Of a stretch of DNA of 64,000 bases, positions 1 to 31,055 are shown one piece after another. Position 1 is the first letter of the stretch. Every line of letters begins with the position of its first letter. Under the pieces are notes generated by a model that was given only the letters and a program-made list of their open reading frames with translations, was not told the DNA's origin and did no database searches. A program made the position numbers and the translations under genes. This DNA is from Extensimonas vulgaris (GTDB taxonomy: Bacteria; Pseudomonadota; Gammaproteobacteria; Burkholderiales; Burkholderiaceae_C), in NCBI RefSeq assembly GCF_003337425.1, contig NZ_QPJU01000001.1, forward strand, positions 274,880 through 338,879, given 5' to 3'.

Positions 1-1
1 G

Positions 2-1285
2 CTGCGCCACTTGGGCGACGCCATCCCCTGCCCCATGACGCCGGGGCGCGACCATGACTGGGCCAGCCTCGTCGCCCAGCAGCCGAGCGAGCTGCCCACC
101 GCCGAGATGGCTGCCGACGACGCCGCCGTCCTGCTCTACACCTCGGGCACCACGGGCAAGCCCAAGGGTTGCGTGTGGACGCACGTGAGCTTCCTCGGCT
201 CCATGGTCACGCGCGACATGCACATTTGCGCTGATTTCAAGCCCTCCGACCGCTTCTTTTTCATGAGCGACATGGGCTGGATGGTAGGCGCGATGTGCGC
301 CTGCGTGCCGAGCTATTTCGGCGGCAGCCTGCTCGTGGCCGAAGGCACGCCCGACTTCCCCGACACAGGCCGCTTCTGGCGCCTGGTGCAAGACCACAAG
401 GTCACCTACCTTGGTGTTGCACCCACGCTGATCCGCAGCCTCATGCGCTATGGCGACGAAGAGGTCGAGCGCTATGACCTGTCTTCGCTGCGCGTGACCT
501 GCTCGGGCGGCGAGGCCTGGACGGAAGCGCCCTGGCGCTGGTTTTTCGACCACGTCTGCAAAAAGCGCCTGCCCATCATGAACATCGTGGGCGGCACCGA
601 AGTGGGCGGCTGCAACTTCACCGGCACCATGATCCACCCGATGCGCCCCGGCTCTTTCGGTGCACGCGGCCTAGGTGCGGGCGTGGACATCGTCGACGAA
701 AGCGGCAAGCCCGTGCCGCGCGGCCAAGTGGGCGAGCTCATTTTGCGCAATCCCAACATCGGCTTCACCAAGAGCCTGTGGAACGACGACGAACGCTACC
801 TCGACAGCTACTGGCGCATCATCCCCGGCGTCTGGGTGCACGGTGACTTTGCCATGCAGGACGAAGACGGGCTTTACTACATCCTCGGGCGCAGCGACGA
901 CACCATCAAAATCTCGGGCAAGCGCACAGGTCCGTCGGAAATCGAAACCCTGCTGACCCAAACGGGCAAGGTGTCCGAGGTTGCGGTCGTGGGCGTACCT
1001 GACGAAATCAAAGGCTCGGCCATCGTCTGCGTGTGCGTGCCCATGCCGGGCGTGCAGCCCGATGCAGCGCTCGAAGCCGAGCTTTCGCAAGCGGTGGTGC
1101 ATGGCATGGGTGCCTCGTACCGGCCCAAGCAAATCGTCTTCGTGCACGATCTGCCCAAGACGCGCAACATGAAAATCATGCGCCGCGTGGTGCGCGCCGT
1201 CTACAAGGGCGAAAGCCCGGGCGACCTGTCTTCGCTCGTCAACCCCGAGAGCGTGGCGGAACTGCAGAGCAAAGTCGGCCCATAA
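2..1285 (+). CDS. acyl-CoA ligase (AMP-binding), 5' end outside window
   Basis: This is the C-terminal 424 or more residues of an adenylate-forming acyl-CoA ligase, which activates a carboxylic acid with ATP and then CoA. The frame is open to the window edge with no convincing start, so the N-terminus is missing. The nucleotide-binding motif YTSGTTGKPKG lies at about residues 43-53 of the visible part. A GRSDDTIKISGKR hinge follows near residue 300, and the catalytic Lys lies in the NMKIMRR segment near residue 390. The pattern resembles acetyl- or acetoacetyl-CoA synthetases more than the other ligases in this window. It runs toward the leftward catabolic operon and shares a bidirectional terminator with it, so it may belong to the same pathway. 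The substrate is unknown. Confidence 0.85.
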   Translation: MRHLGDAIPCPMTPGRDHDWASLVAQQPSELPTAEMAADDAAVLLYTSGTTGKPKGCVWTHVSFLGSMVTRDMHICADFKPSDRFFFMSDMGWMVGAMCACVPSYFGGSLLVAEGTPDFPDTGRFWRLVQDHKVTYLGVAPTLIRSLMRYGDEEVERYDLSSLRVTCSGGEAWTEAPWRWFFDHVCKKRLPIMNIVGGTEVGGCNFTGTMIHPMRPGSFGARGLGAGVDIVDESGKPVPRGQVGELILRNPNIGFTKSLWNDDERYLDSYWRIIPGVWVHGDFAMQDEDGLYYILGRSDDTIKISGKRTGPSEIETLLTQTGKVSEVAVVGVPDEIKGSAIVCVCVPMPGVQPDAALEAELSQAVVHGMGASYRPKQIVFVHDLPKTRNMKIMRRVVRAVYKGESPGDLSSLVNPESVAELQSKVGP

Positions 1286-1303
1286 GCGGCATCGCCCGCA
1301 AAA

Positions 1304-1339
1304 CAAAAGCCTGCGATGAAACGCAGGCTTTTGGTTTTT
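1304..1339 (+). terminator. bidirectional rho-independent terminator
   Basis: A perfect 12-bp stem CAAAAGCCTGCG (1304-1315) pairs with 1322-1333 around a 6-nt loop. GTTTTTG follows on the + strand, and TTTTGTTTT follows the stem on the - strand. It lies between the converging ligase genes and can end transcription from both sides. A second perfect 10-bp hairpin lies at 1342-1380 without a T-run. Confidence 0.8.
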
Positions 1340-1392
1340 GACCGCTGCGGCCCGCCACTGGGATGCGATTGCCGCAGCGGGCCGGAGTGTTT

Positions 1393-3162
1393 TCAGCGCC
1401 GCTGTGCGCTGGGTGTGGCGTTACCCCCTAAGCCGAAATGCTCTATGGCGATCTTGCGCAGCATGAATTTCTGGATCTTGCCCGAGGCCGTCATGGGGAA
1501 TTCTTCGACGAACATCCAGTATTTGGGCACCTTGAAGCGCGCCACGCGCTCTTGCACGAAGGCCGTGAGCTCTTCTTCGCTGCTGGTTTTCCCGCTCTTG
1601 AATTGCACGAAAGCCGCGCCGACCTCGCCCATGCGCTCGTCGGGCACGCCGCAGATATAGACCTGGTTGATGGCCTCGTGCTGGCCAATGACTTCTTCGA
1701 CCTCCTTGGGCGCGACCTGCTCGCCGCCGATTTTGTATAAATCCTTGGCCCGGCCCGTGATTTCGAAATAACCGTCCTCGCGGCGGCGGAAGATGTCGCC
1801 CGTGCGCAGCCAGCCGTCCTTGTCGATGGCGTCGCCGGTTTCCATGGGCTTTTTGTAGTAGCCGCGCGTGACGATGTTGCCGCGCACGGCGAGTTCGCCT
1901 TCGTGCACGTCGGGCGGCAGGTCTTCCTTGGTCGAAGGGTCTATGAGCTTGAACTGCGCCTGCAGGCCGCCGAACTCTTCCACGCCGGAGGCGCCACCGG
2001 GCTTTTCTTTGCCCACTGCCGTGCTGATGAGTTCGAGCGGCGCGCCAAACGGCGTGTACATGGCCGCGCCGGCGACTTCGGTCATGCCCCACGCGGTGAA
2101 CAGCTCCTTGATGCCCAATTCGCGCTGCAGCGCCTCCCAGACCCACAGCGGTGTCGGCGCAGCCGCATTGATCATGGCGCGCAGGCTGCTGAGGTCGTAT
2201 TTTTTGAGGTCAGGATGGTTGAGCAGCGCGACGGCAATGGTCGGCACGCTGGCGATGCGCGTCGCCCTGCTGGCTTCGAGCAAGGCCAAAAACTTGCCAG
2301 GGTCGAACAAGGCCTGCGGGATATACGCGCCACCGACGAACAGCACCGACAAAAAGCCGATCTTGTAGCCAAAAATATGGTGCAGCGGCAATGGGCTCGC
2401 GAGACGCTCTGCGTCGTCATAGCACTCGCTCCAGGCTGTGCCGTAGGCGCTGCGCATGAGCATGTCGTGCGTCAGCATCACGCCTTTGGGGCTGCCCGTG
2501 GTGCCCGAGGTGTAGCAGATCAGCGTCACCTCATCGGGGTAGCGCGAGGCCTTTTGGCGCTCGGCCAGCGCTTCGTCCGAAACCCCATCGCCCAGGCGCA
2601 GAAAACTTTCCCAGTCCAAAGCGCCGCCGTAGCGCGCGCCAGACGGCGACTGCACGACCACGTGGCGCAGGCGCGGAAAGGATTCGGCACGCCAACTGCC
2701 CGGCGCGCCCTGCATCTCGGGCAGCATGTGCTGGAGCTTTTCGATGTAGTGCCGGTCTTCGCAATGGTCCATCGCAATCAGGCACACGCTGTCGGATTGC
2801 TTGACCTGGTAGGCCAGATCGACCGCACCCATGCGTTCGTTGAGCGGCACGCTGACGCAACCGATCTTGGCCACCGCAAGCTGCAAAAAAGCGAGCTCGG
2901 GCACCGTCGGGAAAAGCATGGCCACGTGCTCGCGCCGCTGCACGCCGAGCACCATCAGGCTTTTCGCGAGCCGATCGGCAATCTGGCGCGACTCGGCATA
3001 GGTGTAGATTTTTTCAGGCGTGTAGATGTGTTCGCGCTCGGCATATTGCGCAGCCAGGCGGTCGAACCAATCGCCCATGGTCAGGCGCTGCCAGACTGGG
3101 ACGCGCTGCGCCAGCGCGGCACGTCTTTGCGCTGCGATGTCGGCAGCGGTGGATGCTTGCAT
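1393..3162 (-). CDS. acyl-CoA ligase, paralogue A
   Basis: A 589-residue adenylate-forming ligase. The P-loop-like motif CYTSGTTGSPKG is at about residues 217-228, and the C-terminal catalytic Lys is in TASGKIQK near residue 568. AAAGGAG precedes the chosen ATG at good spacing. It is the last gene of the leftward operon. It is a close paralogue of the ligase at 4936-6711: the two align end to end, with long identical blocks such as MDHCEDRHYI and NIVTRGYYKKP. They differ most in the region after the P-loop that shapes the acyl pocket (the segment around residues 235-260 and the NAAAPTPLW segment). This suggests duplicated enzymes with related but different substrates. The ligase class is certain; the substrate is not. 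Confidence 0.88.
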   Translation of the reverse strand: MQASTAADIAAQRRAALAQRVPVWQRLTMGDWFDRLAAQYAEREHIYTPEKIYTYAESRQIADRLAKSLMVLGVQRREHVAMLFPTVPELAFLQLAVAKIGCVSVPLNERMGAVDLAYQVKQSDSVCLIAMDHCEDRHYIEKLQHMLPEMQGAPGSWRAESFPRLRHVVVQSPSGARYGGALDWESFLRLGDGVSDEALAERQKASRYPDEVTLICYTSGTTGSPKGVMLTHDMLMRSAYGTAWSECYDDAERLASPLPLHHIFGYKIGFLSVLFVGGAYIPQALFDPGKFLALLEASRATRIASVPTIAVALLNHPDLKKYDLSSLRAMINAAAPTPLWVWEALQRELGIKELFTAWGMTEVAGAAMYTPFGAPLELISTAVGKEKPGGASGVEEFGGLQAQFKLIDPSTKEDLPPDVHEGELAVRGNIVTRGYYKKPMETGDAIDKDGWLRTGDIFRRREDGYFEITGRAKDLYKIGGEQVAPKEVEEVIGQHEAINQVYICGVPDERMGEVGAAFVQFKSGKTSSEEELTAFVQERVARFKVPKYWMFVEEFPMTASGKIQKFMLRKIAIEHFGLGGNATPSAQRR

Positions 3163-3191
3163 GGAGTGGCTCCTTTGCGAAAAAAACTTCT

Positions 3192-3240
3192 CTTTTAATA
3201 GCTGCTAGCGCTTGATACATAAGGGCTAGAGGCCAATTTT
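3192..3240 (+). repeat. AGC-type intergenic repeat, copy 1
   Basis: This copy contains ATAGCTGCTAGCGCTTGATA followed by CATAAGGGCTAGAGGCC, and it sits between two ligase genes of the leftward operon. It belongs to the dispersed family also seen at 10481, 20461, 38361, 39370, 43017, 43842, 45488, 56645, 61652 and 63711. Confidence 0.8.
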
Positions 3241-3268
3241 GCTTATAAAAACGGGGCAGCGGCGCCGC

Positions 3269-4876
3269 CTAACGGTTGAAATACGACGCGAAGTCTTTGC
3301 GCACCTGGTTTTTTTGGATCTTGCCCGTGGCCGTCTTGGGCATGGCATCGACGACGACGACCGCCTTGGGGCATTTGAAGGGGCTGAGCTTTTGTTTGAC
3401 CTTGGCCAGCAATTCGTCGGGGTCTATGGTCTCGCCGGGGCGCACGGTGACCACGGCGGTCACGGCCTCGCCCCAGCGCTCGTGCGGCAGGCCCACGACC
3501 ACGACCTCGGCGAGCTTGGGCTCGACGGCGTAGAGCGCTTTTTCGACCTCGATCGAGGCGACGTTCTCGCCGCCGGACTTGATCACGTCCTTGTGGCGGT
3601 CTTCGAACCAGAGCATGCCGTCCGCGCCAAAGTGCCCCACGTCGCCCGAATGGAACCAGCCATGGCGAAAGGCTTCGCGCGTGGCTTTCTCGTCGTGCAG
3701 GTATTCGGTCAGCAGGTGCGGACTGCGATAGACGATCTCGCCCGACTGCTCGCGCGGCAGCAGGTTGCCGGCATCGTCCATGATGCCGATCTGCACGTTG
3801 ATGCCGGCCGTGCCGATGGCGCCCGGATGCGAGAGCTGGTGCTCGGGGCGAAAGCAGGTCGAGGCCGGGCTCATTTCGGTCTGGCCGAACATCAGCGAGA
3901 GCTCGCAGCCGAACACGTCTATGAGGCGGCGCAGGTCGTCGTCGGGCATGGGCGCCATCGCGTACACGGCGCGCCGCAGGCTGGAGACTTTGCGCGGCTT
4001 GCGCTCCTGCTCTTCGAGCAGCGCGCGGAACATCATCGGCAGGCCGAAGAACATGGTGATCTGCTCGGCCTCTATCAGGTCGAGCAGCACCACGGGGTCG
4101 AAGGCTTCGAGGATGTAGAGCGTGGCGTTCGAGGCGATCGCGGGCGTGCAAAAGGCGTTGAGCTGCGCCGTGTGGAACATGGGCATCATGGCCACGACCT
4201 TGTCTTTGGCCTTGAGCTCGGTGTCGATGATGACGCCCAGCGTCTCCAGGTAGATCGCCAGGTGGCTGCCGACCACGCCCTTGGGCGCCGAAGTGGTGCC
4301 GCTGGTGTAGAGGTAGGACAGTGGCGCGCGGTCTTGCACCAGCACTTCGGGATCGGTCTGCGCGCGCCCCGCGCCGAGCTGCGCCAGCGACTGCGCCTGC
4401 ACGCGCTGCGGCAGCGCGATGTCGGCGGGCGCGGGGCCTTCGATGACGATCAGGTCGCGGATCGCCGGCAGGTCGCCAAGCACCAGCGCCAATTCACCGA
4501 GCCAGCGCTGCTGCGCCACCACGCCGCGCACCTGCGCGTGGCCGAGCACGTAGCTGAGCTCGCCCTGACGCCAGAACAAATTCAGCGGCGTGCAGACCAC
4601 GCCGATCTTGGCGCAGGCGTAGTAGGTGACGAGGAACTCCATGCAGTTGCCCGACATCAGCGCGAGCGCGTCGCCCTGGCGGTAGCCGAGCGCGAGCAGG
4701 CCGTGCGCCGTGCGGTTGACCCATTGGTTGAACTCTTCGTAGCTGATGCGGCGCGCGCCTTCGACCAGGGCGGTCTTGTGCGGGTCGCGCGCAGCGCTGC
4801 GCGTGAGCATGTCGCCGACGTTGACGCGCTGCGCGAGGTTGAGTTGCAGGGCAAAGTCTGCGGTGGGTGCATTCAT
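3269..4876 (-). CDS. acyl-CoA ligase (CaiC-like)
   Basis: A 535-residue adenylate-forming ligase with the motif LYTSGTTSAPKG at about residues 189-200. A GQTEMS motif follows, and the C-terminal catalytic Lys is in TATGKIQK near residue 522. Overall form resembles crotonobetaine/carnitine-CoA or short/medium-chain fatty acid ligases. GGAG precedes the start by about 9 bases. It lies between the two closely related ligases A and B but is not part of that duplication; its sequence is clearly different. The start at 4876 gives the usual family length. Substrate is unknown, presumably an acid of the same pathway. Confidence 0.87.
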   Translation of the reverse strand: MNAPTADFALQLNLAQRVNVGDMLTRSAARDPHKTALVEGARRISYEEFNQWVNRTAHGLLALGYRQGDALALMSGNCMEFLVTYYACAKIGVVCTPLNLFWRQGELSYVLGHAQVRGVVAQQRWLGELALVLGDLPAIRDLIVIEGPAPADIALPQRVQAQSLAQLGAGRAQTDPEVLVQDRAPLSYLYTSGTTSAPKGVVGSHLAIYLETLGVIIDTELKAKDKVVAMMPMFHTAQLNAFCTPAIASNATLYILEAFDPVVLLDLIEAEQITMFFGLPMMFRALLEEQERKPRKVSSLRRAVYAMAPMPDDDLRRLIDVFGCELSLMFGQTEMSPASTCFRPEHQLSHPGAIGTAGINVQIGIMDDAGNLLPREQSGEIVYRSPHLLTEYLHDEKATREAFRHGWFHSGDVGHFGADGMLWFEDRHKDVIKSGGENVASIEVEKALYAVEPKLAEVVVVGLPHERWGEAVTAVVTVRPGETIDPDELLAKVKQKLSPFKCPKAVVVVDAMPKTATGKIQKNQVRKDFASYFNR

Positions 4877-4935
4877 GGTGGGTTGTCTCCTGAAGGGTTT
4901 TGCTGGTGTGACGCCCGTGTGGCGTCACGACTGCG

Positions 4936-6711
4936 CTATCGCGACGTCGTGTGGTTGCGGATTTCGTGCAGGCCGAACTTTTCCGAGGCGAGCTGGCGCA
5001 GGAGGAATTTCTGCACCTTGCCCGAGGCCGTCATGGGGAAGTCCTCGACGAACACCCAATACTTCGGAATCTTGAAGCGCGCCACGCGCGTCTGCACGAA
5101 GGTGGTGAGCTCTTCTTCGGTGCAGCTGCGCCCGGCCTTGAACTGCACGAAGGCCGCGCCGACCTCGCCCATGCGCTCGTCGGGCACGCCGCAGATATAG
5201 ACCTGGTTGACGGCCTCGTGCTGGCCTATCATTTCTTCGATTTCTTTGGGCGCGACCAGCTCGCCGCCGATTTTGTACAAGTCTTTGGCCCGGCCGGTGA
5301 TGAGGTAGTAGCCGTCGCTGCGGCGGGCAAACACGTCGCCCGTGCGCAGCCAGCCGTCCTTGTCTATGGCCTCGCCGGTCTCTATGGGTTTTTTGTAGTA
5401 GCCGCGCGTGACGATGTTGCCGCGCACGGCGAGCTCGCCCTCCGGGGCGTCGGGCGGCAGGTCTTCCTTGGTCGAAGGGTCTATGAGCTTGCATTCGACC
5501 AGGTTGCCGCCAAACTCCTCCAGTCCCGCGACGCCGCCCGGCTTTTCGAGGCCCACGGTGTTGGTGATGACTTCGAGCGAGGCGCCAAACGGCGTGTACA
5601 TGGCAGCGGCCGAGGTCTCGGTCATGCCCCAGCCGGTCACCATTTCGGTGATGCCCATGTCGCGCTGCAAAGCCTCCCAGACCCACAGCGGCGTGGCCGC
5701 GGCGGCGTTTTTCATGGCGCGCAGGCAGAGCTTGCGCTGGGGCAGATCGGGATGATTGAGCAGCGCCACCGCAATCGTCGGCACGCTCTCGATGCGCGTG
5801 GCCCGGCTTTGCTCCAAGAGTTGCAAAAAAGCCCCGGCGTCGAACAAGGCCTGCGGAATGTAGGTGCCGCCAACGAACAGCAAGGCCAGAAAACCCTCCA
5901 CGTAAATGAACATGTGGTGCAAGGGCAATGGGCTTGCGATGCGCTCGCCCTCGATGAGGCCCTGGCTGTAGGCTGCGCTGTAGGCGCTGCGCATGAGCAT
6001 GTCGTGCGTGACCATCACGCCCTTGGGGCTGCCCGTGGTGCCTGAGGTGTAGCAGATCAGCGCCACTTCGTCGGGGTAGCGCGAGGCTTCCTGACGCGAG
6101 CGCAGCGCCTCGTCGGAAACACCATCGCCCAGGCGCAAAAACGCCTCCCAATCGAGCGCTCCGCCGTAGCGCGCGCCCGACGGCGACTGCACGACCACGT
6201 GGCGCAGGCGCGGAAAGGATTCGGCACGCCAACTGCCCGGCGCGCCCTGCATCTCGGGCAGCATCTGCTGGATTTTGTCGATGTAGTGCCGGTCTTCGCA
6301 GTGGTCCATCGCAATCAGGCACACGCTGTCGGACTGGCGCACCTGGTAGGCCAGATCGACGGCCCCCATGCGCTCGTTGAGCGGCACGCACACGCAGCCG
6401 ATCTTGGCCACGGCGAGCTGCAAAAACGCGAGCTCGGGCACCGTGGGAAAGAGCATGGCCACGTGGTCGCGCCGCTGCACGCCCAGCGCCATCAGGCTCT
6501 TCGCAAGGCGATCGACGATCTGGCGCGACTCGGCGTAGCTGTAGCTTCTCTCGGGCGTATAGATGTGCTCGCGCTCGGCGAATTCGGCCGCGAGGCGGTC
6601 GAACCAGTCACCTATGGAGAGGCGCGTCCATTGCGGAATGCGCCGCGCAAGGGCGGCGCGGCGTTGTTCGAGGCTGGGCGCGGTTTGCGCTGGGTTCATT
6701 TGTGTCTCCAT
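4936..6711 (-). CDS. acyl-CoA ligase, paralogue B
   Basis: A 591-residue adenylate-forming ligase, the paralogue of 1393-3162. It carries the same motif CYTSGTTGSPKG and the C-terminal TASGKVQK Lys. The DNA at about 6180-6264 is nearly identical to 2640-2725, while flanking parts have diverged, which suggests gene conversion after duplication. The acyl-pocket segment differs from paralogue A (QGLIEGERIASPLPLHHMF here, ECYDDAERLASPLPLHHIF there). The gene is 60 bp downstream of the previous ligase's stop in genome order and is transcribed leftward after the enoyl-CoA hydratase at 6736. Function class is certain, substrate unknown. Confidence 0.88.
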   Translation of the reverse strand: METQMNPAQTAPSLEQRRAALARRIPQWTRLSIGDWFDRLAAEFAEREHIYTPERSYSYAESRQIVDRLAKSLMALGVQRRDHVAMLFPTVPELAFLQLAVAKIGCVCVPLNERMGAVDLAYQVRQSDSVCLIAMDHCEDRHYIDKIQQMLPEMQGAPGSWRAESFPRLRHVVVQSPSGARYGGALDWEAFLRLGDGVSDEALRSRQEASRYPDEVALICYTSGTTGSPKGVMVTHDMLMRSAYSAAYSQGLIEGERIASPLPLHHMFIYVEGFLALLFVGGTYIPQALFDAGAFLQLLEQSRATRIESVPTIAVALLNHPDLPQRKLCLRAMKNAAAATPLWVWEALQRDMGITEMVTGWGMTETSAAAMYTPFGASLEVITNTVGLEKPGGVAGLEEFGGNLVECKLIDPSTKEDLPPDAPEGELAVRGNIVTRGYYKKPIETGEAIDKDGWLRTGDVFARRSDGYYLITGRAKDLYKIGGELVAPKEIEEMIGQHEAVNQVYICGVPDERMGEVGAAFVQFKAGRSCTEEELTTFVQTRVARFKIPKYWVFVEDFPMTASGKVQKFLLRQLASEKFGLHEIRNHTTSR

Positions 6712-6735
6712 TCGTTGTGGTGCGGCACCCGGCCT

Positions 6736-7524: not shown

Positions 7525-7592
7525 GGGTTTCTTTCTTGCAAGGGAATGGGAAGTCGTTGAATGGGAAGAAAAGTAGCCGAAGCCGGGTGGAC

Positions 7593-8387: not shown

Positions 8388-8429
8388 GGCTTGTCTCCTC
8401 GGTGGTTTTGTTCTATCGGCGGGGCTCGC

Positions 8430-10469: not shown

Positions 10470-10480
10470 AAAACTTCCAA

Positions 10481-10526
10481 ATCAGTAGCTGCTAGCGCTT
10501 GATGCATAAGCGCTAGAGGCCCATTT
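10481..10526 (+). repeat. AGC-type intergenic repeat, copy 2
   Basis: AGTAGCTGCTAGCGCTTGAT followed by GCATAAGCGCTAGAGGCCC. It sits between the two carboxylase subunit genes, so it must be transcribed in the operon. The GCTAGCGCTT and AAGCGCTAG halves can fold into a hairpin. Confidence 0.8.
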
Positions 10527-10561
10527 GATGCATATTTTTGGGACGACAGCCAGGTTCGCAC

Positions 10562-12169: not shown

Positions 12170-12217
12170 TCGATTCCTCTTTCGTCTCGGTGCCCCGGCG
12201 GTCCGCCTCGTGGCGGG

Positions 12218-13348: not shown

Positions 13349-13372
13349 GGCTTGTTCCTCCTGCGGGCTTTA

Positions 13373-19460: not shown

Positions 19461-19478
19461 CCTGGCCATCACCATCAC

Positions 19479-19557: not shown

Positions 19558-19579
19558 CAGACCAAGGAGACGAAGCGAC

Positions 19580-20380: not shown

Positions 20381-20460
20381 GCCCCGGCTGCGGCGCGCAA
20401 GCCCAGGGCTTTTCAGGCAGCGACTGCCGCCCGAATTTTTGAAAAATCCACTCCAAAAAG

Positions 20461-20500
20461 ATAGCTGCTTGCGCTTCATTCATGAGCGCAAAAGCCCTTT
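20461..20500 (+). repeat. AGC-type intergenic repeat, copy 3
   Basis: ATAGCTGCTTGCGCTTCATT followed by CATGAGCGCAAAAGCCC. It lies in the 167-bp gap before the second thiolase gene. The CTTGCGCT and GAGCGCAA halves can pair. Confidence 0.75.
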
Positions 20501-20547
20501 TTTAATATCATTTTTTCGCTATTGTTTTTGTAACTCAGGAGCCCTCC

Positions 20548-21795: not shown

Positions 21796-21849
21796 AGCGC
21801 CCCGTCCTTACCCCACCCATTTCACCAACGCACCTGCGCGGAGCCCATC

Positions 21850-23831: not shown

Positions 23832-25798
23832 GCGCCCCCTCTTCCGTGATCCCCACGCTGCCGCAAACCCTGCTCGCGCACGCGCAAAACCACCCGCAGC
23901 GCCTGGCGCAGCGCGTCAAGCGCAAGGGCATCTGGCGCACCTACACCTGGAGCAACGTATTCGAGCGCGTGCGCAACATCGCCCTGGGCGCGGCGGCGCA
24001 AGGCCTGCAGCGCGGCGAAACCGTGGTCGTGATCGGTGAGAACGAACCCGAGCACTTCTGGGCGCTGTTCGCCGCGCAGTCCCTCGGCGCCAAGACCGTC
24101 TCGGTCTATCCCGACGCCACGCCCGACGAGCTCCACTACCTCTGCGAAGACTCCGAGGCGCGCTTCATCTTCGCGCAAGACCAGGAGCAGGTGGACAAGG
24201 CGCTCGCGGTGCTCGACCGGCTGCCCGACATCCGCGGCATCGCCTACTGGGACGACGCGGGCATGTGGTCGTACCGGCACCCGCTGCTGCTGTCGCTGGA
24301 CACCTTGAGCGCCGAGGGCGCACGCCAGCACGAGCGCCAGCCGCAACGCTTCGCGCGTGAAGTCGCCGACGGCCGGGCCGACGACCTGGCGCTGCTGACC
24401 TACACCTCGGGCACCACGAGCAAGCCCAAGGGCGTGATGATCAGCCACCGCTGGCTCATAGACAACGCTCTGCGCATGAAGAGCGCGCTGCCGCTGCAAG
24501 AGGGCATGGAATACCTCTCGTACACGCCGCTGGCCTGGGTCACCGAGCAGTTGCTGGGCGTGACGCTGGGCCTGATCACGCCCCTGGTGGTGAACTTCCC
24601 GGAGGCGCCCGACCAGGTCTTGCCCAACCTGCGCGAGCTCGCGCCGCACATCGTGCTGTTTGGCCCGCGCCAGTGGGAAAACATCGCCGCGACCATCGAG
24701 GCGCGCATGCTCGACGCGAGCTGGCTCGCGCGCCGCACCTACCGCTGGGGTCTGCGCATCGGCCACGACGTGCATGTGGCGCGGCTCGAAGGGCGCGCCG
24801 CGCCGCTCGCCTCGCGCCTGCTGCTGCCGCTGGCCGAGGCGCTGGTGCTGCACCCGCTGCGCGACCAGTTCGGGCTCATCCACGCCAAAGTCGCGGTCTC
24901 GGGCGGCACGGCCATGGCGCCCGACGTGTTCCGTCTGTTCCACGCCATGGGCGTGGGCCTGCGCAACGTCTATGGCTGCTCGGAGTTCGGCCTGATCGCG
25001 GGCCACCGCGGCGAACGCTACGACCTCGAGACCGTGGGCCCGCTGCTCGACGTCGATCCGGCTTTTGGCGAGCCGCTGCAGACGCGCATCGCCGACAACG
25101 GCGAGCTGCAGTTGCGCGGCGGCACGGGGTTTTTGGGCTACTGGCACAAGCCCGACAAGACCGCGGCAATGGTTCGCGACGGCTGGTTCCTCACGGGGGA
25201 TGCGGTGCGCCAGACCGAGCGCGGCGAGCTCGTCTATCTCGACCGTGTCGAGCACCTCGTCAAGCTCGCGAGCGGCCACCTGTACCCGCCACAGTTCATC
25301 GAAACACGTCTGCGCTTTTCGCCCTACATCAAGGACGTGATGGTGCTCGGTGACGCCACGCGCCCCTGGGTCGGCGCGCTGATCAACATCGACATGGCCG
25401 TCGTAGGCCGCTGGGCCGAGGAGCGGCGCATCGCGTTCTCGACCTTCACCGACCTGTCGCAGCGCCCCGAGGTGCGCGAACTCGTGCGCGAGGAGATCCG
25501 CCGCATCAACCAGTTCCTGCCCGAGGGCTCGCGCGTGGTGCGCTTTGCCAACTTTCCCAAGGAGCTCGACCCCGACGAAGGCGAACTCACGCGCACGCGC
25601 AAGCTGCGCCGTGAATTCCTCGCGCAGCGCTACCAAGCACTCATCGAGGGCTTGTATGCAGGAGCCGCAGAGATCCCCTGCGAGATCGCCGTGACCTATC
25701 AAGACGGCCGCCAAGGCGTGCTGCGCGCCACCGTCGTCGCCACCGACATCGAACCCCAGACCGCAGGGGGACGCAACGCCCGGAGTGCCCAAGCATGA
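23828..25798 (+). CDS. long-chain-type acyl-CoA ligase inside the importer operon
   Basis: A 656-residue adenylate-forming ligase of the long-chain (Faa/FadD15-like) group. The motif TYTSGTTSKPKG lies near residues 193-204, GCSEFG near residue 383, and the hinge DRVEHLVKLASGHL near residue 475. It overlaps the ATPase gene before it and the permease gene after it by 4 bp each, so it is made together with the importer. This suggests that the acid is activated to its CoA ester on entry. Similar ligase-in-Liv operons are known for aromatic and fatty acids in betaproteobacteria; the cargo here is inferred. Confidence 0.87.
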   Translation: MSAPSSVIPTLPQTLLAHAQNHPQRLAQRVKRKGIWRTYTWSNVFERVRNIALGAAAQGLQRGETVVVIGENEPEHFWALFAAQSLGAKTVSVYPDATPDELHYLCEDSEARFIFAQDQEQVDKALAVLDRLPDIRGIAYWDDAGMWSYRHPLLLSLDTLSAEGARQHERQPQRFAREVADGRADDLALLTYTSGTTSKPKGVMISHRWLIDNALRMKSALPLQEGMEYLSYTPLAWVTEQLLGVTLGLITPLVVNFPEAPDQVLPNLRELAPHIVLFGPRQWENIAATIEARMLDASWLARRTYRWGLRIGHDVHVARLEGRAAPLASRLLLPLAEALVLHPLRDQFGLIHAKVAVSGGTAMAPDVFRLFHAMGVGLRNVYGCSEFGLIAGHRGERYDLETVGPLLDVDPAFGEPLQTRIADNGELQLRGGTGFLGYWHKPDKTAAMVRDGWFLTGDAVRQTERGELVYLDRVEHLVKLASGHLYPPQFIETRLRFSPYIKDVMVLGDATRPWVGALINIDMAVVGRWAEERRIAFSTFTDLSQRPEVRELVREEIRRINQFLPEGSRVVRFANFPKELDPDEGELTRTRKLRREFLAQRYQALIEGLYAGAAEIPCEIAVTYQDGRQGVLRATVVATDIEPQTAGGRNARSAQA

Positions 25799-26682
25799 TG
25801 ACCGAATTCTTCAACTACACGCTCAATGGCGCCCTGCTCGGGCTGCTGTACGCGCTCGTGGCCATGGGCTTCGTCGTGATCTACCGCGCGAGCAAGGTCT
25901 TCAACATGGCCGTGGGCGAGATGATCGTGCTCGGCGCCTTTTTGCTCTGGTGGGCGATCCAGTCGCGCGGCATGCATCCGGCACTGGGCATAGGCGTGGC
26001 GCTGCTGATCGCGGTCGTGGTCGGCTTGCTGATCGAGCGGCTGCTGTTTCGGCGCCTGATCGGCGAGTCGGTGTTCTCGATGATCATGGTCACCATCGGC
26101 CTCTTGATCCTGATGCGCGGTCTGGTGCTCGTGATCTGGGGCCCGCAGGAGCGGCAGTTCCCGGCGATCTTCCCGCTCGCGCCGCTGATCGTGTTCGACA
26201 TGATCGTGCCGCGCTCACTCGCCGCGGGCGGCGTCATCGCGGTGCTCGCCGCGTTGGGGCTGCACTGGTTCTTCAACCACAGCCGCAGCGGCCTGGCCAT
26301 GTCAGCGGTGGCCGAAGACCACCAGATCGCCCTCTCCATGGGCATCAGCGTGCGCCGCTCGATCGCCTTTGCCTGGGCGCTGGGTGGCGTGCTCTCGGTC
26401 GTCACCGCCATGGTCTATCTGAGCGGCAAGTCGCTCACCTTCCTGTCCTCGGAAATCGGCTTTGCCGCGCTGCCCGTGGCGCTGCTCGCGGGCCTCGAGT
26501 CGATCGCCGGCCTGCTGCTCGCCGGCCTCATCGTCGGCATCGTGCAAGGGCTGACTTCCGCCTACATCGACCCACTGATCGGCGGCAACGCCGCTGCGGT
26601 GGTGCCCTACATCTTCATGCTGGTGGTGCTGGTGGTGCGTCCTACCGGCATGTTCGGCTGGAAACGCATCGAAAGAGTCTGA
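25795..26682 (+). CDS. ABC importer permease, LivH-type
   Basis: A 295-residue polytopic inner-membrane permease of the branched-chain amino acid importer family, with about eight hydrophobic segments and the typical N-terminus NYTLNGALLGLLYALVAMGF. The AEDHQIALSMGI segment near residue 170 is the cytoplasmic coupling region. The start overlaps the ligase stop by 4 bp. It pairs with LivM-type 26687-27739. Confidence 0.9.
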   Translation: MMTEFFNYTLNGALLGLLYALVAMGFVVIYRASKVFNMAVGEMIVLGAFLLWWAIQSRGMHPALGIGVALLIAVVVGLLIERLLFRRLIGESVFSMIMVTIGLLILMRGLVLVIWGPQERQFPAIFPLAPLIVFDMIVPRSLAAGGVIAVLAALGLHWFFNHSRSGLAMSAVAEDHQIALSMGISVRRSIAFAWALGGVLSVVTAMVYLSGKSLTFLSSEIGFAALPVALLAGLESIAGLLLAGLIVGIVQGLTSAYIDPLIGGNAAAVVPYIFMLVVLVVRPTGMFGWKRIERV

Positions 26683-26686
26683 CACC

Positions 26687-27739
26687 ATGGATCCCTCCGG
26701 CATCTTCCCCACGAGCTACGCGCAAGACCGCGCCCTGATACGTACGCGCCCCCAATGGGTGGTGTTCTGGCTGTTCATCGTGCTGCTCTTTTTGTACCCC
26801 TGGCTGGCATCGGCACGCCTATTGGCCGTGGCCAACCTCATCCTGGTGACCTCCATCGTCGTGATCGGCCTGCAGATCACCACGGGCTACGCAGGGCAGA
26901 TCAACCTCGGCCAGGCAGCCTTCATGGGCGTGGGCGCCTACGCCGCGAGCGTGATCGCCACCAAGACGGCGCTGCCTTTTTGGCTCGCCGTGCCCATGGG
27001 CGGCCTCGTCGCCGGGTTTTCGGGCTGGCTGTTCGGCCTCACGGCGGCGCGCATCAAGGGTTTTTACCTGGCCCTGACGACCATCGCGGCGCAGTTCATC
27101 TTCCACTTCCTGGTGCTGAACCTGCCCTCGGCCTGGCTCGGCGGCGTGACCGGCTTCAGTCTGCAGCCCGCGCGCCTGGGCAGCATCGTGTTCGACACCG
27201 ACCGCTCGCTCTATTACCTGTTCCTTGTCGTCACCATGGTCATGGTGTTCGGTGCCTTCGGCATCCTGCGCAGCCGCCACGGCCGCGCCTTCGTGGCCGT
27301 GCGCGACGACGACGTGGCCGCGGGCATGATGGGCATAGACGTGGCCGGTGCCAAGTCGCGCGCCTTCGTGCTCGGTGCGTTCTATGCAGGCATAGGCGGC
27401 GCTCTGTGGGCCTACCAGGTGCGCTACGTCTCGGTCGATCAGTTCACGCTGTTTCACTCGATCTGGTTCATCGCAATGATGATCGTGGGCGGCCTGGGCT
27501 CCATCGTCGGCGCCGTGCTCGGCACGGTGCTGATCCGCGGCGTGCAGGAGACCATCACCAGCCTCGGCCCCGACCTGGTCGAGCGCATCCCCAGCCTCAG
27601 CAGCGACCTGGTTTTTGCCAGCATGAACGTCTTTCTGGGTTTGATCATCACGCTGTTTCTGCTGCTCGAACCCAAAGGCCTGATGCACCGCTGGAACATC
27701 CTCAAACTCAACTACCGGCTCTGGCCGTTCCATCACTGA
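26687..27739 (+). CDS. ABC importer permease, LivM-type
   Basis: A 350-residue polytopic permease with the LivM-type motif GYAGQINLGQAAFMGVGAY near residue 66 and the coupling segment AVRDDDVAAGMMGIDV near residue 205. It starts 4 bp after the LivH-type stop. It forms the second half of the membrane channel of the same importer. Confidence 0.9.
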   Translation: MDPSGIFPTSYAQDRALIRTRPQWVVFWLFIVLLFLYPWLASARLLAVANLILVTSIVVIGLQITTGYAGQINLGQAAFMGVGAYAASVIATKTALPFWLAVPMGGLVAGFSGWLFGLTAARIKGFYLALTTIAAQFIFHFLVLNLPSAWLGGVTGFSLQPARLGSIVFDTDRSLYYLFLVVTMVMVFGAFGILRSRHGRAFVAVRDDDVAAGMMGIDVAGAKSRAFVLGAFYAGIGGALWAYQVRYVSVDQFTLFHSIWFIAMMIVGGLGSIVGAVLGTVLIRGVQETITSLGPDLVERIPSLSSDLVFASMNVFLGLIITLFLLLEPKGLMHRWNILKLNYRLWPFHH

Positions 27740-27798
27740 CTTCCTGCAACCCCCCTTTTCCCATTTTTTCGTCCCTCAGCAACTACCTGGAGACTTTC

Positions 27799-29031
27799 AT
27801 GCAACGCAACACCTTTCTCAAACTCTCGGCCGCGCTGGCTGCAGGTCTGGCCCTGAGCGCCCCGGCGCTGGCCCAGACCAAGACCATCAACATCGCTGGC
27901 CTCGCCGACTTCGCCGGGCCCTACGCCAACGTCATGCCCGAGATGGCCGGCGCGCGTGCCGCCGTGTTCGAGTGGTGGAACAAAGAGGTCGGCAGCAAGC
28001 TCAATGCGCAGATCGCCGTCAAGACCTACGACACGCGCTACGACGTCGCGCAGACCTCCAGCCTGTGGCCCGGCATCAAGGCAGAGCTCAAACCCGTGGT
28101 CGTCCTCGGCCTGGGCGGCAGCGACGCCGCAGCACTGCAACAGCGCCTGCCCGAAGACAAAATCCCCATGCTGCTGGCCACCGCCACCTACGGCTTCGGC
28201 TGGAAGCCCAACCAGTGGGCCTTGAACCTGCGCCCCACCTACGCGCACGAGGCTGGCGCGTTCATCGAGTGGTATCGCGCCACCAAACTCGAAGGCAAGC
28301 GCCCGGTCAAGGTGGGCATCATCACGTCGGAAGCGACGCCGGCCTATGCGGACCAAGCCAAGGGCCTGCAAAGCTACGCCAAAGCGCACCCGGACAAAGC
28401 CACGTTCGTCGAAGCCATCTGGACCGAGGTGCAGCCCACCGACATCACGCTGCCCGTGCGCCGGCTGGCCAATGCCGGCACCGACGTGATCGTGATCCAG
28501 ACCAACACCGCGCAGGCCGTAGCCACCAAGCGTGCGCTGCAGGCGCTGGGCAAAAACATTCCCATCGTGCTGTCGCTGCACAATGGCCTCGCAGCCTCGT
28601 CCAAAGCGCTGGGCAGCCCGAACGGCTTTGCGGGTGACTATGAAGCCGGCGCCATCGCCGACGCGAGCGACAGCGACACGCCGGCGCGCAGGTTCTACCG
28701 CATGCTGCAAGAAAAATACGGCCTCAAATCGGGCTGGAACGCGATGACCATCATGGGCCTGGCGCAAAGCATGGCTGCCGCACGCGCCATCGAGCACACG
28801 ATCAAGAGCCAGGGCGCCGACAAGGTCACGGGCCAGACGGTGTACGACACCCTCATGAAGACCAAGTTCACCAGTGCCGAGCTCATGGGCATCATGGCGG
28901 GCATGGACTTCAGCCCCGAAAACCCCTTCCCCACGGCCAGCTCCAAGCTCAACATCGTGACCATGAAGGAAGACGGCAAAGTCGTGCGGGCCGCCGGCGA
29001 CATCCCCATGCCCACGGTGCCCAAGTGGTGA
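27799..29031 (+). CDS. ABC importer periplasmic substrate-binding protein (LivK-like)
   Basis: A 410-residue periplasmic binding protein of the type 1 fold. The Sec signal peptide (FLKLSAALAAGLALSAPALAQ, cleavage expected after ALA or AQ) is at residues 1-26. The mature chain starts TKTINIAGLADFAGPYAN. The start was placed at MQRNTF, after GGAG; a much longer open frame upstream overlaps the permease gene and is not real. It sets the importer's specificity, which is not readable from sequence. Confidence 0.88.
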   Translation: MQRNTFLKLSAALAAGLALSAPALAQTKTINIAGLADFAGPYANVMPEMAGARAAVFEWWNKEVGSKLNAQIAVKTYDTRYDVAQTSSLWPGIKAELKPVVVLGLGGSDAAALQQRLPEDKIPMLLATATYGFGWKPNQWALNLRPTYAHEAGAFIEWYRATKLEGKRPVKVGIITSEATPAYADQAKGLQSYAKAHPDKATFVEAIWTEVQPTDITLPVRRLANAGTDVIVIQTNTAQAVATKRALQALGKNIPIVLSLHNGLAASSKALGSPNGFAGDYEAGAIADASDSDTPARRFYRMLQEKYGLKSGWNAMTIMGLAQSMAAARAIEHTIKSQGADKVTGQTVYDTLMKTKFTSAELMGIMAGMDFSPENPFPTASSKLNIVTMKEDGKVVRAAGDIPMPTVPKW

Positions 29032-29867
29032 CAGCGCAAGCGCAGACCCAAGCCGGGGTGGCGACCCCGGCCGCATTGCTCGCGCTCTCCAACGTCGAGG
29101 TGCTTTATTCAGAGGTCATCCTCGCGCTCAAGGGCGTATCGCTGCAGATTCCCGCGGGCGGCTGCGTCGCGCTGCTGGGCGCCAACGGCGCGGGCAAGAG
29201 CACCACGCTCAAGGCCATCTCGGGCGTGATCGACTCGGAGGACGGGCGCGTTTCGGGCGGCAGCATCACTTTTGCCGGCCAACCCATTCACGGGCTGGAC
29301 CCGGCGACCGTGGTGCGCAGCGGGCTCGTGCACGTGATGGAGGGCCGGCGCGTGCTGCAACACATGACAGTGGAGCAAAACCTCATCATCGGTGGGCACA
29401 TGTTCCCGTCCGCACGCGCGATGCGCGCGGCGCTGGAACGTGTCTATGAGGCCATCCCGCGCCTGGCCGACCTGCGCAAACGCACCTCGGGCTACCTCTC
29501 GGGCGGCGAGCAGCAAATGCTCGTGATCGGCCGCGCCATCATGGCCCAGCCCAAGCTCATGCTGATCGACGAGCCCTCGCTGGGCCTCGCGCCGCGCATG
29601 ACCGACGAGGTCTTCGCCGTGCTGCGCAAGCTGCGCGCGCAAGGGCTTGCGCTGCTGATCGTCGAGCAGAATACGCGCGTGGCGCTCGAGATCGCCGACT
29701 ACGGCTACGTCATGGAAAGCGGGCGCATCGTGCTCGAAGGGCAGGCGCAGGAGCTGCGCGACAATGAGGACGTGCGCGAGTTCTACCTCGGCCTGGACCG
29801 CGAAGGCGCCCGCAAGAGCTTCCGCGACATCAAACACTACAAACGCCGCAAGCGCTGGCTCGGCTGA
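29025..29867 (+). CDS. ABC transporter ATP-binding protein, LivF-type
   Basis: A 280-residue ABC ATPase. Walker A GANGAGKST is near residue 53, the signature YLSGGEQQML near residue 157, and Walker B LMLIDEPSLGL near residue 181. It starts with GTG inside the 3' end of the binding-protein gene (two adjacent GTG codons at 29025 and 29028 are possible). The C-terminus has an extra basic tail (KSFRDIKHYKRRKRWLG). It is the second ATPase of the importer. Confidence 0.88.
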   Translation: MVTAQAQTQAGVATPAALLALSNVEVLYSEVILALKGVSLQIPAGGCVALLGANGAGKSTTLKAISGVIDSEDGRVSGGSITFAGQPIHGLDPATVVRSGLVHVMEGRRVLQHMTVEQNLIIGGHMFPSARAMRAALERVYEAIPRLADLRKRTSGYLSGGEQQMLVIGRAIMAQPKLMLIDEPSLGLAPRMTDEVFAVLRKLRAQGLALLIVEQNTRVALEIADYGYVMESGRIVLEGQAQELRDNEDVREFYLGLDREGARKSFRDIKHYKRRKRWLG

Positions 29868-29897
29868 AACAGCAACATCGAACCCAAGGAGATCTTC

Positions 29898-31007
29898 ATG
29901 AGTGGCCCCCTCAAAGGCTTGAAAATCATCGAATTCGGCGGCATCGGCCCCGGCCCCTTTTGCGCCATGCTGCTGTCGGACATGGGCGCGGACGTGATCC
30001 GGCTCGACCGCAAGGCCGACAAAGGCAAGGATCGCGGCCCGGCGGCCTTTCTTGCGAGCGGCCGCCGCGGCGTGTTGCACCGCGGCCGGCGTTCGGTCGC
30101 GGTCGATCTCAAAGACCCGCAAGACAAAGAAAAGGTGCTGCAGCTGATCGACGGCGCCGACGCCATCATCGAGGGCTATCGCCCCGGCGTGATGGAGCGC
30201 CTGGGCCTGGGGCCGGACGTGCTGCTCGCACGCCATCCGCGCCTGGTCTATGGCCGCATGACGGGCTGGGGGCAGGACGGCCCCATGGCGCAGGCCGCGG
30301 GGCACGACATCAACTACATCGCACTCTCGGGCGCGCTCAGCACCATTGGCCGCGCGCAAGGCGGCCCGGTGGCGCCGCCCGCGATGATCGGCGACCTCGG
30401 CGGCGGCGGCATGATGCTGGCCTTCGGCATCGTCTGCGCCTTGCTCGAAGCGCGCAACTCGGGCAAGGGTCAGGTGGTCGATGCCGCCATCGTGGACGGC
30501 GCGGCGCTGCTGACTTCCATCGTCTGCGACCTCAAGGCGCTGGGCTTGTGGCAAAACAAGCTGCAGTCCAACCTGCTCGACGGCGGCGCGCATTTTTACG
30601 ACACCTACGAGTGCGCCGACGGCCAGTGGATCTCGATCGGCTCGCTCGAGCCGCAGTTCTACACCCTGCTGCTCGAAAAGCTCGGCATCACCGACCCCGA
30701 CTTCGCACTCTCGCGCCAGCGCGACCCTGCCGCCTGGCCCGAGCTCAAGCGCAAGATCGCCGACATCTTCCGCAGCCAACCGAGTAGCCACTGGCGCGAT
30801 CTGCTCGAAGGCACGGACGTGTGCTTTGCGCCCGTGCTCACGATCGAAGAAGCCGCGCAGCACCCGCACAACCGCGCGCGCGGCACCTTCTTCGAACGCG
30901 AAGGCATCCTGCAGCCTGCGCCCGCACCGCGCTTCAGCCGCACGGTGCCCGAGCAACCCGGGCCCGCGCCTTACATCGGCGAGCACGATGACGAAATATT
31001 GCAGTAA
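29898..31007 (+). CDS. alpha-methylacyl-CoA racemase-like, CoA-transferase family III
   Basis: A 369-residue CaiB/BaiF-fold protein. The segment GHDINYIALSG near residues 135-145 is characteristic of alpha-methylacyl-CoA racemases (AMACR/MCR). DMGADVIRLDR near residue 30 is the family's N-terminal nucleotide-binding region. The enzyme would interconvert (2R)- and (2S)-2-methylacyl-CoA so that a stereospecific dehydrogenase can act. This is important evidence that the island handles methyl-branched acids. It is the last gene of the rightward arm, followed by a terminator. A CoA-transferase role is the alternative. Confidence 0.83.
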   Translation: MSGPLKGLKIIEFGGIGPGPFCAMLLSDMGADVIRLDRKADKGKDRGPAAFLASGRRGVLHRGRRSVAVDLKDPQDKEKVLQLIDGADAIIEGYRPGVMERLGLGPDVLLARHPRLVYGRMTGWGQDGPMAQAAGHDINYIALSGALSTIGRAQGGPVAPPAMIGDLGGGGMMLAFGIVCALLEARNSGKGQVVDAAIVDGAALLTSIVCDLKALGLWQNKLQSNLLDGGAHFYDTYECADGQWISIGSLEPQFYTLLLEKLGITDPDFALSRQRDPAAWPELKRKIADIFRSQPSSHWRDLLEGTDVCFAPVLTIEEAAQHPHNRARGTFFEREGILQPAPAPRFSRTVPEQPGPAPYIGEHDDEILQ

Positions 31008-31028
31008 GTACGCACACTTCGCACTACG

Positions 31029-31055
31029 AAAGCCGCAGCAAGCTGCGGCTTTTTT
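31029..31055 (+). terminator. rho-independent terminator of the rightward arm
   Basis: The stem AAAGCCGCAG pairs with CTGCGGCTTT around a CAAG loop, followed by further T residues. It lies 22 bp after the racemase-like gene and closes the catabolic operon before parE. Confidence 0.88.

Follow-up and report, generated by a model that had tools for sequence, protein, structure and literature searches.

The gene island at positions 1 to 31007 of the window (the 64,000-nucleotide stretch that was analysed, from a contig of Extensimonas vulgaris, a member of the Comamonadaceae) appears, on balance, to be one block of a larger system that degrades methyl-branched, and probably terpenoid and alicyclic, acids as CoA thioesters. 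In this system, β-oxidation involving a racemase and an SCP2-type thiolase would be joined to biotin-dependent γ-carboxylation, and the blocks, contiguous in relatives, are scattered in this genome. The system seems to be dispersed and partly mobile, and we infer its substrate from sequence.

Gene calling and Pfam scans gave 24 complete genes and one ligase gene cut by the window edge, arranged as a minus-strand arm of 13 genes (1393-17622) and a plus-strand arm of 11 genes (17856-31007). A preliminary description had counted about 24 genes in two arms, with six acyl-CoA ligases including the partial one, a biotin-dependent carboxylase, a LiuC-like hydratase, a racemase-like protein, two SCP-x-like thiolases, a HadAB-like hydratase, paired acyl-CoA dehydrogenases, and a Liv-type importer. 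This inventory was recovered in full by profile scans, with six AMP-binding ligases and with Pfam E-values far below chance for every family named; an SDR, a third acyl-CoA dehydrogenase, and two further crotonases, making three in the island, had not been named. The edge-cut, acetyl-CoA-synthetase-like ligase (2-1285, plus strand; PF00501, PF13193) comprises the C-terminal 427 residues of a gene that starts 592 bases upstream of the window, and its best NCBIfam match, acetate-CoA ligase, scores 363 bits, below the cut-off of 657. The minus arm begins at its low-numbered end with acyl-CoA ligases C (1393-3162), B (3269-4876), and A (4936-6699), all assigned by gene calling with Pfam and NCBIfam scans, followed by crotonase e2 (6736-7524; PF00378, longer frame) and the LiuC/AtuE-like glutaconyl-CoA hydratase e1 (7593-8387). 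The latter scores 300.2 bits against NF005675 (cut-off 350) and 195.7 bits against the γ-carboxygeranoyl-CoA hydratase model (cut-off 426), and its top two PDB matches include the isohexenylglutaconyl-CoA hydratase 4zu2. The carboxylase consists of an α subunit with biotin carboxylase and BCCP domains (8430-10469; PF02786, PF00289, PF02785, PF00364; BT_MCC_alpha below cut-off) and a carboxyltransferase β subunit (10562-12169; PF01039). The small PimD-like (12218-13348) and large PimC-like (13373-14554) acyl-CoA dehydrogenases both fall below their equivalog cut-offs, with 356.6 of 652.7 bits for TIGR03203 and 425.1 of 623.9 bits for TIGR03204, respectively. The SDR (14584-15411; PF13561), whose best PDB match is the (3R)-hydroxyacyl-CoA dehydrogenase 2et6, is followed by a HadB-like MaoC hydratase (15536-15952; PF01575), a HadA-like or MFE-2-like hydratase half (15966-16409; PF13452, PF22622), both below NCBIfam cut-offs, and thiolase t1 (16438-17622).

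The plus arm contains acyl-CoA ligase D (17856-19460), crotonase e3 (19580-20380; PF00378, 225 bits), the SCP-x-like thiolase t2 (20548-21795), in which the nucleophilic Cys and GHP are present and the second Cys is absent, and the third acyl-CoA dehydrogenase (21850-23010). These are followed by a LivG-type ATPase (23034-23831), acyl-CoA ligase E within the importer operon (23828-25798), permeases of the LivH (25795-26682) and LivM (26687-27739) types, a LivK-type binding protein (27799-29031; PF13458, 87.7 bits), a LivF-type ATPase (29025-29867), and the racemase gene (29898-31007). The permeases were assigned from the Pfam scan, the binding protein with gene calling, and the ATPases, ligases D and E, and the third dehydrogenase from Pfam and NCBIfam scans. 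The last gene encodes a protein of the family III CoA-transferase (CaiB-like) fold that scores 370.7 bits against the racemase MCR (1x74) and 138.7 bits against the best CoA-transferase. Its His136, Asp166, and Glu251 align with His126, Asp156, and Glu241 of MCR, the catalytic residues of that enzyme; on these residues and the bit scores a CoA-transferase identity was rejected, and the protein is assigned as an α-methylacyl-CoA racemase. Thiolase t1 is likewise assigned by its motifs as an SCP2-type thiolase: the nucleophilic Cys (NNNCSTG), GHP, and second, C-terminal Cys motifs of this type are all intact, and it scores 701.9 bits against NF006102 (cut-off 436) and 480.7 bits against 6hsj, with the first match outside the SCP2-thiolases at 196.6 bits.

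The β subunit of the carboxylase is of the MCC/GCC, i.e., γ-carboxylating, type. In a tree of 32 rows, it falls in a 19-row clade with support of 100/100, apart from the MCC, AccD1, and GCC references, among them 3u9r, 4q0g, and 9tps; the deeper forks of the tree are weakly supported. By published criteria (PMC4673880), an MCC β subunit has a Phe and a three-residue insertion at the active site, and a GCC β subunit has a Gly gate and no insertion. The island β subunit has the insertion, and Phe163 of its FPDDGQF motif aligns with the MCC Phe; a GCC identity was thus rejected, and it is another β subunit of the genome, at C4:63165, that has the GCC features. A neighbouring subclade has mostly Ala at the gate, in contrast to the small-pocket Phe of the island protein, which argues against long β-substituents. 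The island β subunit is therefore placed, on the basis of the tree, in a third clade of γ-carboxylating carboxylases, distinct from 3-methylcrotonyl- and geranyl-CoA carboxylases.

The MCC-type Phe and insertion, the adjoining LiuC-like hydratase, and the Liv-type importer would suit an enlarged scavenging pathway for leucine or short branched acids, with the carboxylase serving as an extra 3-methylcrotonyl-CoA carboxylase, as the Liu pathway also pairs an MCC-lineage carboxylase with such a hydratase. This explanation is improbable, since carboxylase C10 of the same genome groups with 3u9r and 9tps (90/88), whereas the island β subunit lies in another clade, and Pfam scans found no HMG-CoA-lyase gene in the island (the genome has four PF00682 genes, and C1, the contig that carries the island, has none of them). 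We also know of no role in leucine breakdown for the racemase, SCP2-thiolase, HadAB, PimC/D, or six ligases. The island resembles the Atu pathway of Pseudomonas in the predicted γ-carboxylation of a β-methyl enoyl-CoA, the glutaconyl-CoA hydratase, the ligases, and the acyl-CoA dehydrogenases. It differs in having Phe rather than Gly at the gate and in adding the racemase, SCP2-thiolase, HadAB, PimC/D pair, and importer. In addition, Pfam scans found neither AtuA nor GCC in the island; both are on contig C4 of the same genome, in an Atu-like block that is linked to the island in relatives.

A sterol or bile-acid side-chain route, in which a C24-branched side chain would require the racemase and γ-carboxylation, was considered because the best solved relative of the PimC-like protein is 4x28, which we take to be a mycobacterial steroid side-chain enzyme, and because an SCPx-like protein without the thiolase Cys lies upstream of the island with a ChsH2-type OB-fold partner (PF01796, PF12172). 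Such a route is very improbable: no steroid-ring gene turned up in the subset of island and super-island genes covered by family searches, either directly or through a match to a searched gene, or in the covered annotation of the Polaromonas sp. JS666 plasmid described below, and the genome gave no match to the KshA oxygenase, on which aerobic steroid degradation was rejected. The earlier view that the gene set is unlike the Liu, Atu, or aerobic steroid clusters is thus borne out. Peroxisomal branched-chain β-oxidation uses AMACR, MFE-2, and SCPx. The island resembles it in the racemase, (3R)-type hydratase and dehydrogenase, and SCP2-type thiolase, but these are separate bacterial genes, with dehydrogenases in place of oxidases and a carboxylase coupled to them.

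Gene order is conserved in part. Among 25 related loci with full 10-kb flanks, only seven genes, including crotonase e2, occur in all 25; the LiuC-like hydratase is present in 12 and missing in 13, and the PimC/D pair is present in 17 and missing in 8. The racemase gene is inside the fetched flanks of only 2 loci, and hence its link in the remaining loci rests on a longer-range map that is detailed for one genome. In Extensimonas sp. H3M7-6, it adjoins the SCPx-HadAB-SDR-carboxylase core, although the locus has neither PimC/D nor the remaining genes of the plus arm. The flanks also contain an acs gene in 8 of the 25 loci and a nitroreductase gene in 6, and the SCPx/ChsH2-OB-fold pair stands beside a related carboxylase in Bradyrhizobium and Afipia; the functional block therefore probably extends farther left than the window island. 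The idea of an insertion that leaves a clean empty site in relatives was rejected: in island-free relatives having both flanking genes, U32 peptidase and parE, these are separated by 47 kb to 1.3 Mb or lie on different contigs, and no tRNA gene was found in the window or the fetched adjoining sequence.

The carboxylase orthologue, AtuA, and the 2-ketocyclohexanecarboxyl-CoA hydrolase BadI are on one contig in eight relatives. Of 12 chosen genomes, 7 have an AtuA orthologue of at least 84% identity on the contig of the island carboxylase, as does one further genome (G236); BadI is on that contig in all seven and in G236, scoring 465.7 to 476.1 bits in 8/8. In a sample of 200 genomes of the family, BadI exceeds the cut-off in 30, so that by itself it is not special, but scores of 465 to 480 bits are confined to the three island genomes. 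In the same sample, the island carboxylase (at least 85%) occurs in 3 genomes and AtuA (at least 84%) in 4, those 3 included, the fourth (G169) having AtuA without the carboxylase; Afipia and Bradyrhizobium have a carboxylase relative without an AtuA orthologue. The only super-island mapped in full, that of Hydrogenophaga aromaticivorans, is at least 144 kb long (530-674 kb), with C5-type, BadI, C1-type, and C4-type blocks in that order. It also contains a GCC-type gene, HMG-CoA-lyase and citryl-CoA-lyase genes, and genes for ETF, ETF-QO, carbonic anhydrase, and a BioB-type radical-SAM protein. The corresponding blocks of the window genome include an HMG-CoA lyase (264.7 bits, cut-off 246), a citryl-CoA lyase (357.5 bits, cut-off 193), AtuA (507 bits), and, outside the window, BadI (C1:360058-360825; TIGR03210 477.7 bits, cut-off 467.6). 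The single route combining racemisation and γ-carboxylation that had been proposed fits the lineage of the carboxylase, the catalytic residues of the racemase, and the H3M7-6 neighbourhood, but the island does not by itself make up the entire pathway: an HMG-CoA-lyase gene is absent from it, and the missing steps are in other blocks, which share its contig in relatives.

The system might instead serve only acyclic isoprenoid acids (citronellate- or geranate-like up to farnesoate, phytanate, or squalene-derived), with the BadI-type hydrolase incidental. AtuA and a GCC-type β subunit with Gly at the gate (5ikl, 755.6 bits) in the linked system would fit this, and by our derivation tail-to-tail isoprenoids expose α- and then β-methyl branches. 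It would also suit a protein annotated as 2,4-dienoyl-CoA reductase in the C5-type block of JS666, and the lack of a close BadI match (best 31-33%) over 91 of 199 kb of a Phaeobacter plasmid and 135 of 338 kb of JS666 plasmid 2, both of which carry parts of the system. The Phaeobacter plasmid has island orthologues (t1 75%, SDR 73%, LivG 69%, and others) amid C4- and C5-type genes, which speaks for the larger system. JS666 plasmid 2 carries most of this genome's C5-type block in matching order at 68-95% identity; relatives of the island's own genes reach at most 66% (carboxylase) in the stretches covered there. On the covered stretches of both plasmids, the carboxylase comes closest to the C5 type, HadA gave no match at 1e-5, and the best racemase match is 29-34%, all of which, like the BadI result, counts against the larger system. 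The acyclic explanation nevertheless seems rather unlikely in view of the BadI linkage and score range and because the system repeatedly includes pairs of the PimC/D type, as well as a protein resembling cyclohexanecarboxylate ligase (715.8 bits, cut-off 792). Of the methyl-branched or alicyclic acid first suggested, the alicyclic part gains support from BadI; the substrate itself is a prediction.

In the mixed methyl-branched and alicyclic system that we favour, BadI would open the ring beforehand, the Liv importer would take in the acid, and a ligase would form the CoA thioester. The racemase would set the α-methyl centre so that the PimC/D-type pair can act as dehydrogenase, and HadAB, the SDR, and thiolase t1 would finish a peroxisome-like (3R)-type cycle that tolerates the α-methyl branch. 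Where a β-methyl branch blocks the cycle, the carboxylase would attach CO2 to the blocking methyl group of the 2-enoyl-CoA, and the resulting glutaconyl-CoA would be hydrated by a crotonase; the tertiary alcohol would be cleaved by a lyase outside the island, either of the HMG-CoA-lyase or citryl-CoA-lyase type or the upstream SCPx/ChsH2-OB-fold pair. A scheme in which PimC/D makes an α-isopropyl intermediate from a p-menthane acid was dropped because ring-opening chemistry puts the branch at C5 of pimelyl-CoA and then at C3 of glutaryl-CoA. The Bad/Pim alicyclic route and the mrc limonene ring-cleavage genes of Castellaniella defragrans (PMC4109377) are paralleled by BadI and a BadH-like SDR (below its equivalog cut-off) in the linked system and by the PimC/PimD-like pair. 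The Castellaniella scheme was rejected as a direct match, as the organism reportedly has no atuC/atuF homologues and its proposed limonene scheme, in the section consulted, names no carboxylation (PMC4109377).

More tentatively, the system may constitute a complete degradation of cyclic isoprenoid acids by ring opening, α-methyl β-oxidation, and several successive γ-carboxylations by a third γ-carboxylase class (small-gate Phe and large-gate Ala members, in some genomes in tandem next to a single α subunit). On this reading, the super-island that carries it has markers spanning about 130 to 230 kb, and parts of it would have dispersed, in some cases on plasmids, through Alpha-, Beta-, and Gammaproteobacteria. 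Literature searches, with most subscription papers outside their reach, found no description of such a pathway or of the whole system.

Plant debris, algae, and petroleum are rich in naphthenic acids and in methyl-branched and cyclic terpenoid acids. If the proposed explanation is right, the third γ-carboxylase clade would bring a single-residue test, Phe versus Ala at the gate, and the super-island would show that more than 140 kb can be scattered in one genus and kept together in relatives. The system would then supply a carboxylation-based route hitherto lacking for such acids, together with marker genes for it.

The island contains 24 complete genes in two divergent arms at window positions 1393-31007, preceded by a fragment of a ligase gene (acs) at 2-1285 that is cut by the window edge. 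Genes were called with a simple codon-score script and families were assigned by Pfam scans, and all of the gene families named in the preliminary description were found in the island. A gyrase-B/ParE-type gene was identified downstream by Pfam. Upstream of the ligase fragment are a nitroreductase-family gene, two further ligases, an SCPx-like protein (t0), and a ChsH2-type zinc-ribbon/OB-fold (DUF35-type) protein. Farther upstream, at window positions -19849 to -15363 (L001 31-4517; L001 is the stretch to the left of the window), gene calling also gave a putative additional operon for a Liv-type importer. The host genome is a 3.09-Mb draft in 28 contigs from Extensimonas (Comamonadaceae), and the nearest orthologues of the island carboxylase (98%) occur in Extensimonas perlucida and Extensimonas sp. 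H3M7-6. Near the end of the window, two called ORFs on the minus strand (61729-61977 and 63790-63996) share an identical protein stretch close to their starts; thus, a segment is duplicated there.

Compared with the alpha-methylacyl-CoA racemase (MCR) of M. tuberculosis, the CaiB-like protein reaches 370.7 bits, versus 138.7 bits for the best CoA-transferase, and the MCR alignment retains MCR residues His126, Asp156, and Glu241, which we take to be catalytic. The first island thiolase (t1) matches SCP2-thiolase type-1 with 480.7 bits, the first match outside that family scoring 196.6, and carries the GHP motif and both cysteine motifs. In the second (t2), the second Cys is absent, with the first Cys and GHP in place. 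The upstream t0 lacks the first, nucleophilic Cys and matches 4u4e (281 bits), followed by 9myr and the lipid-transfer protein 6ok1; together with its OB-fold partner, t0 is more likely to be an aldolase. The gene for t0 (L001 13334-14952, window -6546 to -4928) adjoins that of the ChsH2-type protein, and SCPx-like/OB-fold pairs of 65-89% identity are present in Bradyrhizobium and Afipia loci near third-clade carboxylases. The closest solved structure to the PimC-like dehydrogenase is 4x28, and the matches to the PimC and PimD models fall under their cut-offs. The SDR is closest to 2et6, a (3R)-hydroxyacyl-CoA dehydrogenase, and the top two structures for the LiuC-like hydratase (crotonase e1) are 4k3w and the isohexenylglutaconyl-CoA hydratase 4zu2.

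In PMC4673880, 3-methylcrotonyl-CoA and geranyl-CoA carboxylases (MCC and GCC) are distinguished by Phe plus a three-residue insertion versus Gly. The island beta subunit has Phe at residue 163, and the insertion is also present. In a 32-row tree, this subunit belongs to a 19-row clade (support 100/100) that excludes 3u9r (MCC), 4q0g, 9tps, and 5ikl (GCC). The order of the large carboxylase groups is unsure, because the deeper forks linking them, where long branches come together, are supported at values near 80. A five-row subclade lies beside the island subclade, joined at a fork with support of 92/92, and at the Phe position it has Ala in the host's own C13:4154 protein and in those of Bradyrhizobium, Nevskia, and Polycyclovorans, and Gly in that of Xenophilus (L072:6780). 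The host genome has eight carboxyltransferase genes of this kind, including that of the island and a PCC-like one at 32%. On contig C13 (L102 2387-5668), two divergent beta genes, with the gate Phe in one and Ala in the other, adjoin one biotin carboxylase gene; tandem or divergent beta pairs are also observed in Nevskia, Polycyclovorans, and Bradyrhizobium. The same C13 stretch has, close together, two highly similar genes for 706-residue proteins (L102 10711-12831 and 15727-17847), presumably flagellin-like as judged from the N-terminus.

A contig scan yielded 78 loci, 33 of which have a carboxylase with at least 84% identity; full 10-kb flanks are available for 25 of these, including two from one Schlegelella genome. 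All 25 contain t1, HadA, HadB, the SDR, both carboxylase subunits (beta and alpha), and crotonase e2. Crotonase e3 and t2 are found in 22, PimC and PimD in 17, e1 in 12, acs in 8, and the nitroreductase in 6; the racemase and LivG are each found in 2, the flanks being mostly too short to reach the importer. Among the gene-called loci, three (L019, L035, and L036) have genes for a CaiB-type protein, a dehydrogenase, and a crotonase between those for the carboxylase subunits. This trio is absent from that position in the host genome, and the CaiB-type gene so placed in Hydrogenophaga encodes a family III CoA-transferase fold protein. In the Extensimonas sp. H3M7-6 locus, the racemase gene directly adjoins t1, and PimC/D and the other plus-arm genes are missing.

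Linkage was assessed in 12 genomes hand-picked from 12 of the 78 loci and searched with the acyclic-terpene-utilization marker AtuA and the island carboxylase. AtuA is present at 84% or more in nine and at 72% in Nevskia; the search gave only a 37% match in Afipia and none in Bradyrhizobium. Both genes lie on one contig in seven of the 12, 49 to 115 kb apart, and on separate contigs in two Extensimonas genomes and Nevskia. The same seven genomes have another carboxyltransferase (41-43% identity) approximately 10 kb from AtuA, its GCC type being established for Hydrogenophaga only. Of 200 sampled genomes of the family, three carry the island carboxylase at 85% or more, and these three and one other carry AtuA at 84% or more; in G236, both are on one contig. 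Since two of the three island-bearing genomes belong to one genus, the three do not represent independent events.

Against the model for the ring hydrolase BadI (TIGR03210, cut-off 467.6), the Hydrogenophaga gene reaches 468.3 and the host gene at C1:360058-360825 reaches 477.7; the latter is located approximately 54 kb beyond the island in a small pair with an SDR gene, among genes unrelated to the system. A linked BadI gene is on the island contig in all seven contiguous genomes, exceeding the cut-off in six (465.7 in Acidovorax NO-1), and also in G236. BadI scores over the cut-off in 30 of the 200 family genomes, and only the three island-bearing genomes (G000, G001, and G236) fall in the range of 465-480 bits.

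A 160-kb stretch of Hydrogenophaga aromaticivorans, at whose start the first block is already under way, contains in order a block like that on host contig C5, a BadI/importer/carboxylase block, the island, and a block like that on C4. This super-island also carries ETF-QO, ETF, carbonic anhydrase, and BioB-type genes; ligase D is a 74-residue remnant, and the interval from the island core to acs includes a LigB-type dioxygenase gene. No further oxygenase was found among the part of its genes that was family-searched. The C4-type half is flanked by genes for near-identical integrase-core (rve) proteins on opposite strands (L115 16555-17328 and L118 5344-6117), with Pfam scores just around the cut-off; we assume these to be IS30-type transposases. 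In the C5 block of the host, an N-terminal stretch of a ligase (L101 17882-19729) recurs directly downstream (19839-20000), which suggests a tandem duplication.

Relatives are also found on plasmids. The island carboxylase has matches in 428 plasmid records at an E value of 1e-100 (39 with at least 60% identity), and t1 in 89 records at 1e-80 (85 with at least 60%). A Phaeobacter plasmid from an Emiliania huxleyi culture encodes relatives of t1 (75%), the SDR (73%), LivG (69%), t2 and e2 (64% each), LivH and LivM (63% each), LivF (62%), ligase E (59%), e3 (54%), ACAD3 (53%), and LivK (52%), and it also carries genes of the AtuA, HMG-CoA-lyase, and citryl-CoA-lyase types. Within the 91 kb read, the carboxylase is closer to the C5 type than to that of the island (71% versus 62%), HadA had no match at 1e-5, HadB had only a 73-residue match, and matches to the racemase and BadI reached only 34% and 33%, respectively. 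Polaromonas JS666 plasmid 2 (135 kb read) resembles the Phaeobacter plasmid in these comparisons and has a C5-type block. Genes for a P450, presumably CYP153, a 2Fe-2S protein, an FAD oxidoreductase, a PQQ dehydrogenase, and an aldehyde dehydrogenase (L122 7538-15128) adjoin its C5-system genes, and this group is possibly a hydrocarbon-to-acid feeder.

The preliminary description had proposed one route combining beta-methyl carboxylation with alpha-methyl racemization for a branched or alicyclic acid; this interpretation is supported in part, the substrate being its weakest point. Alpha-methyl branches are dealt with by a racemase and an SCP2-thiolase, beta-methyl enoyl-CoAs are the targets of MCC/GCC-type carboxylases, and the hydrated carboxylation product is cleaved by HMG-CoA lyase. 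As deduced from sequence for the mechanism as a whole, the island would supply the racemase/SCP2-thiolase and carboxylase steps, and the lyase step would come from other blocks, i.e., the HMG-CoA lyase at C5:48450 and the citryl-CoA lyase in the C4 block. Ring-derived 3-alkylglutaconyl-CoA could also join the route at the hydratase, without carboxylation.
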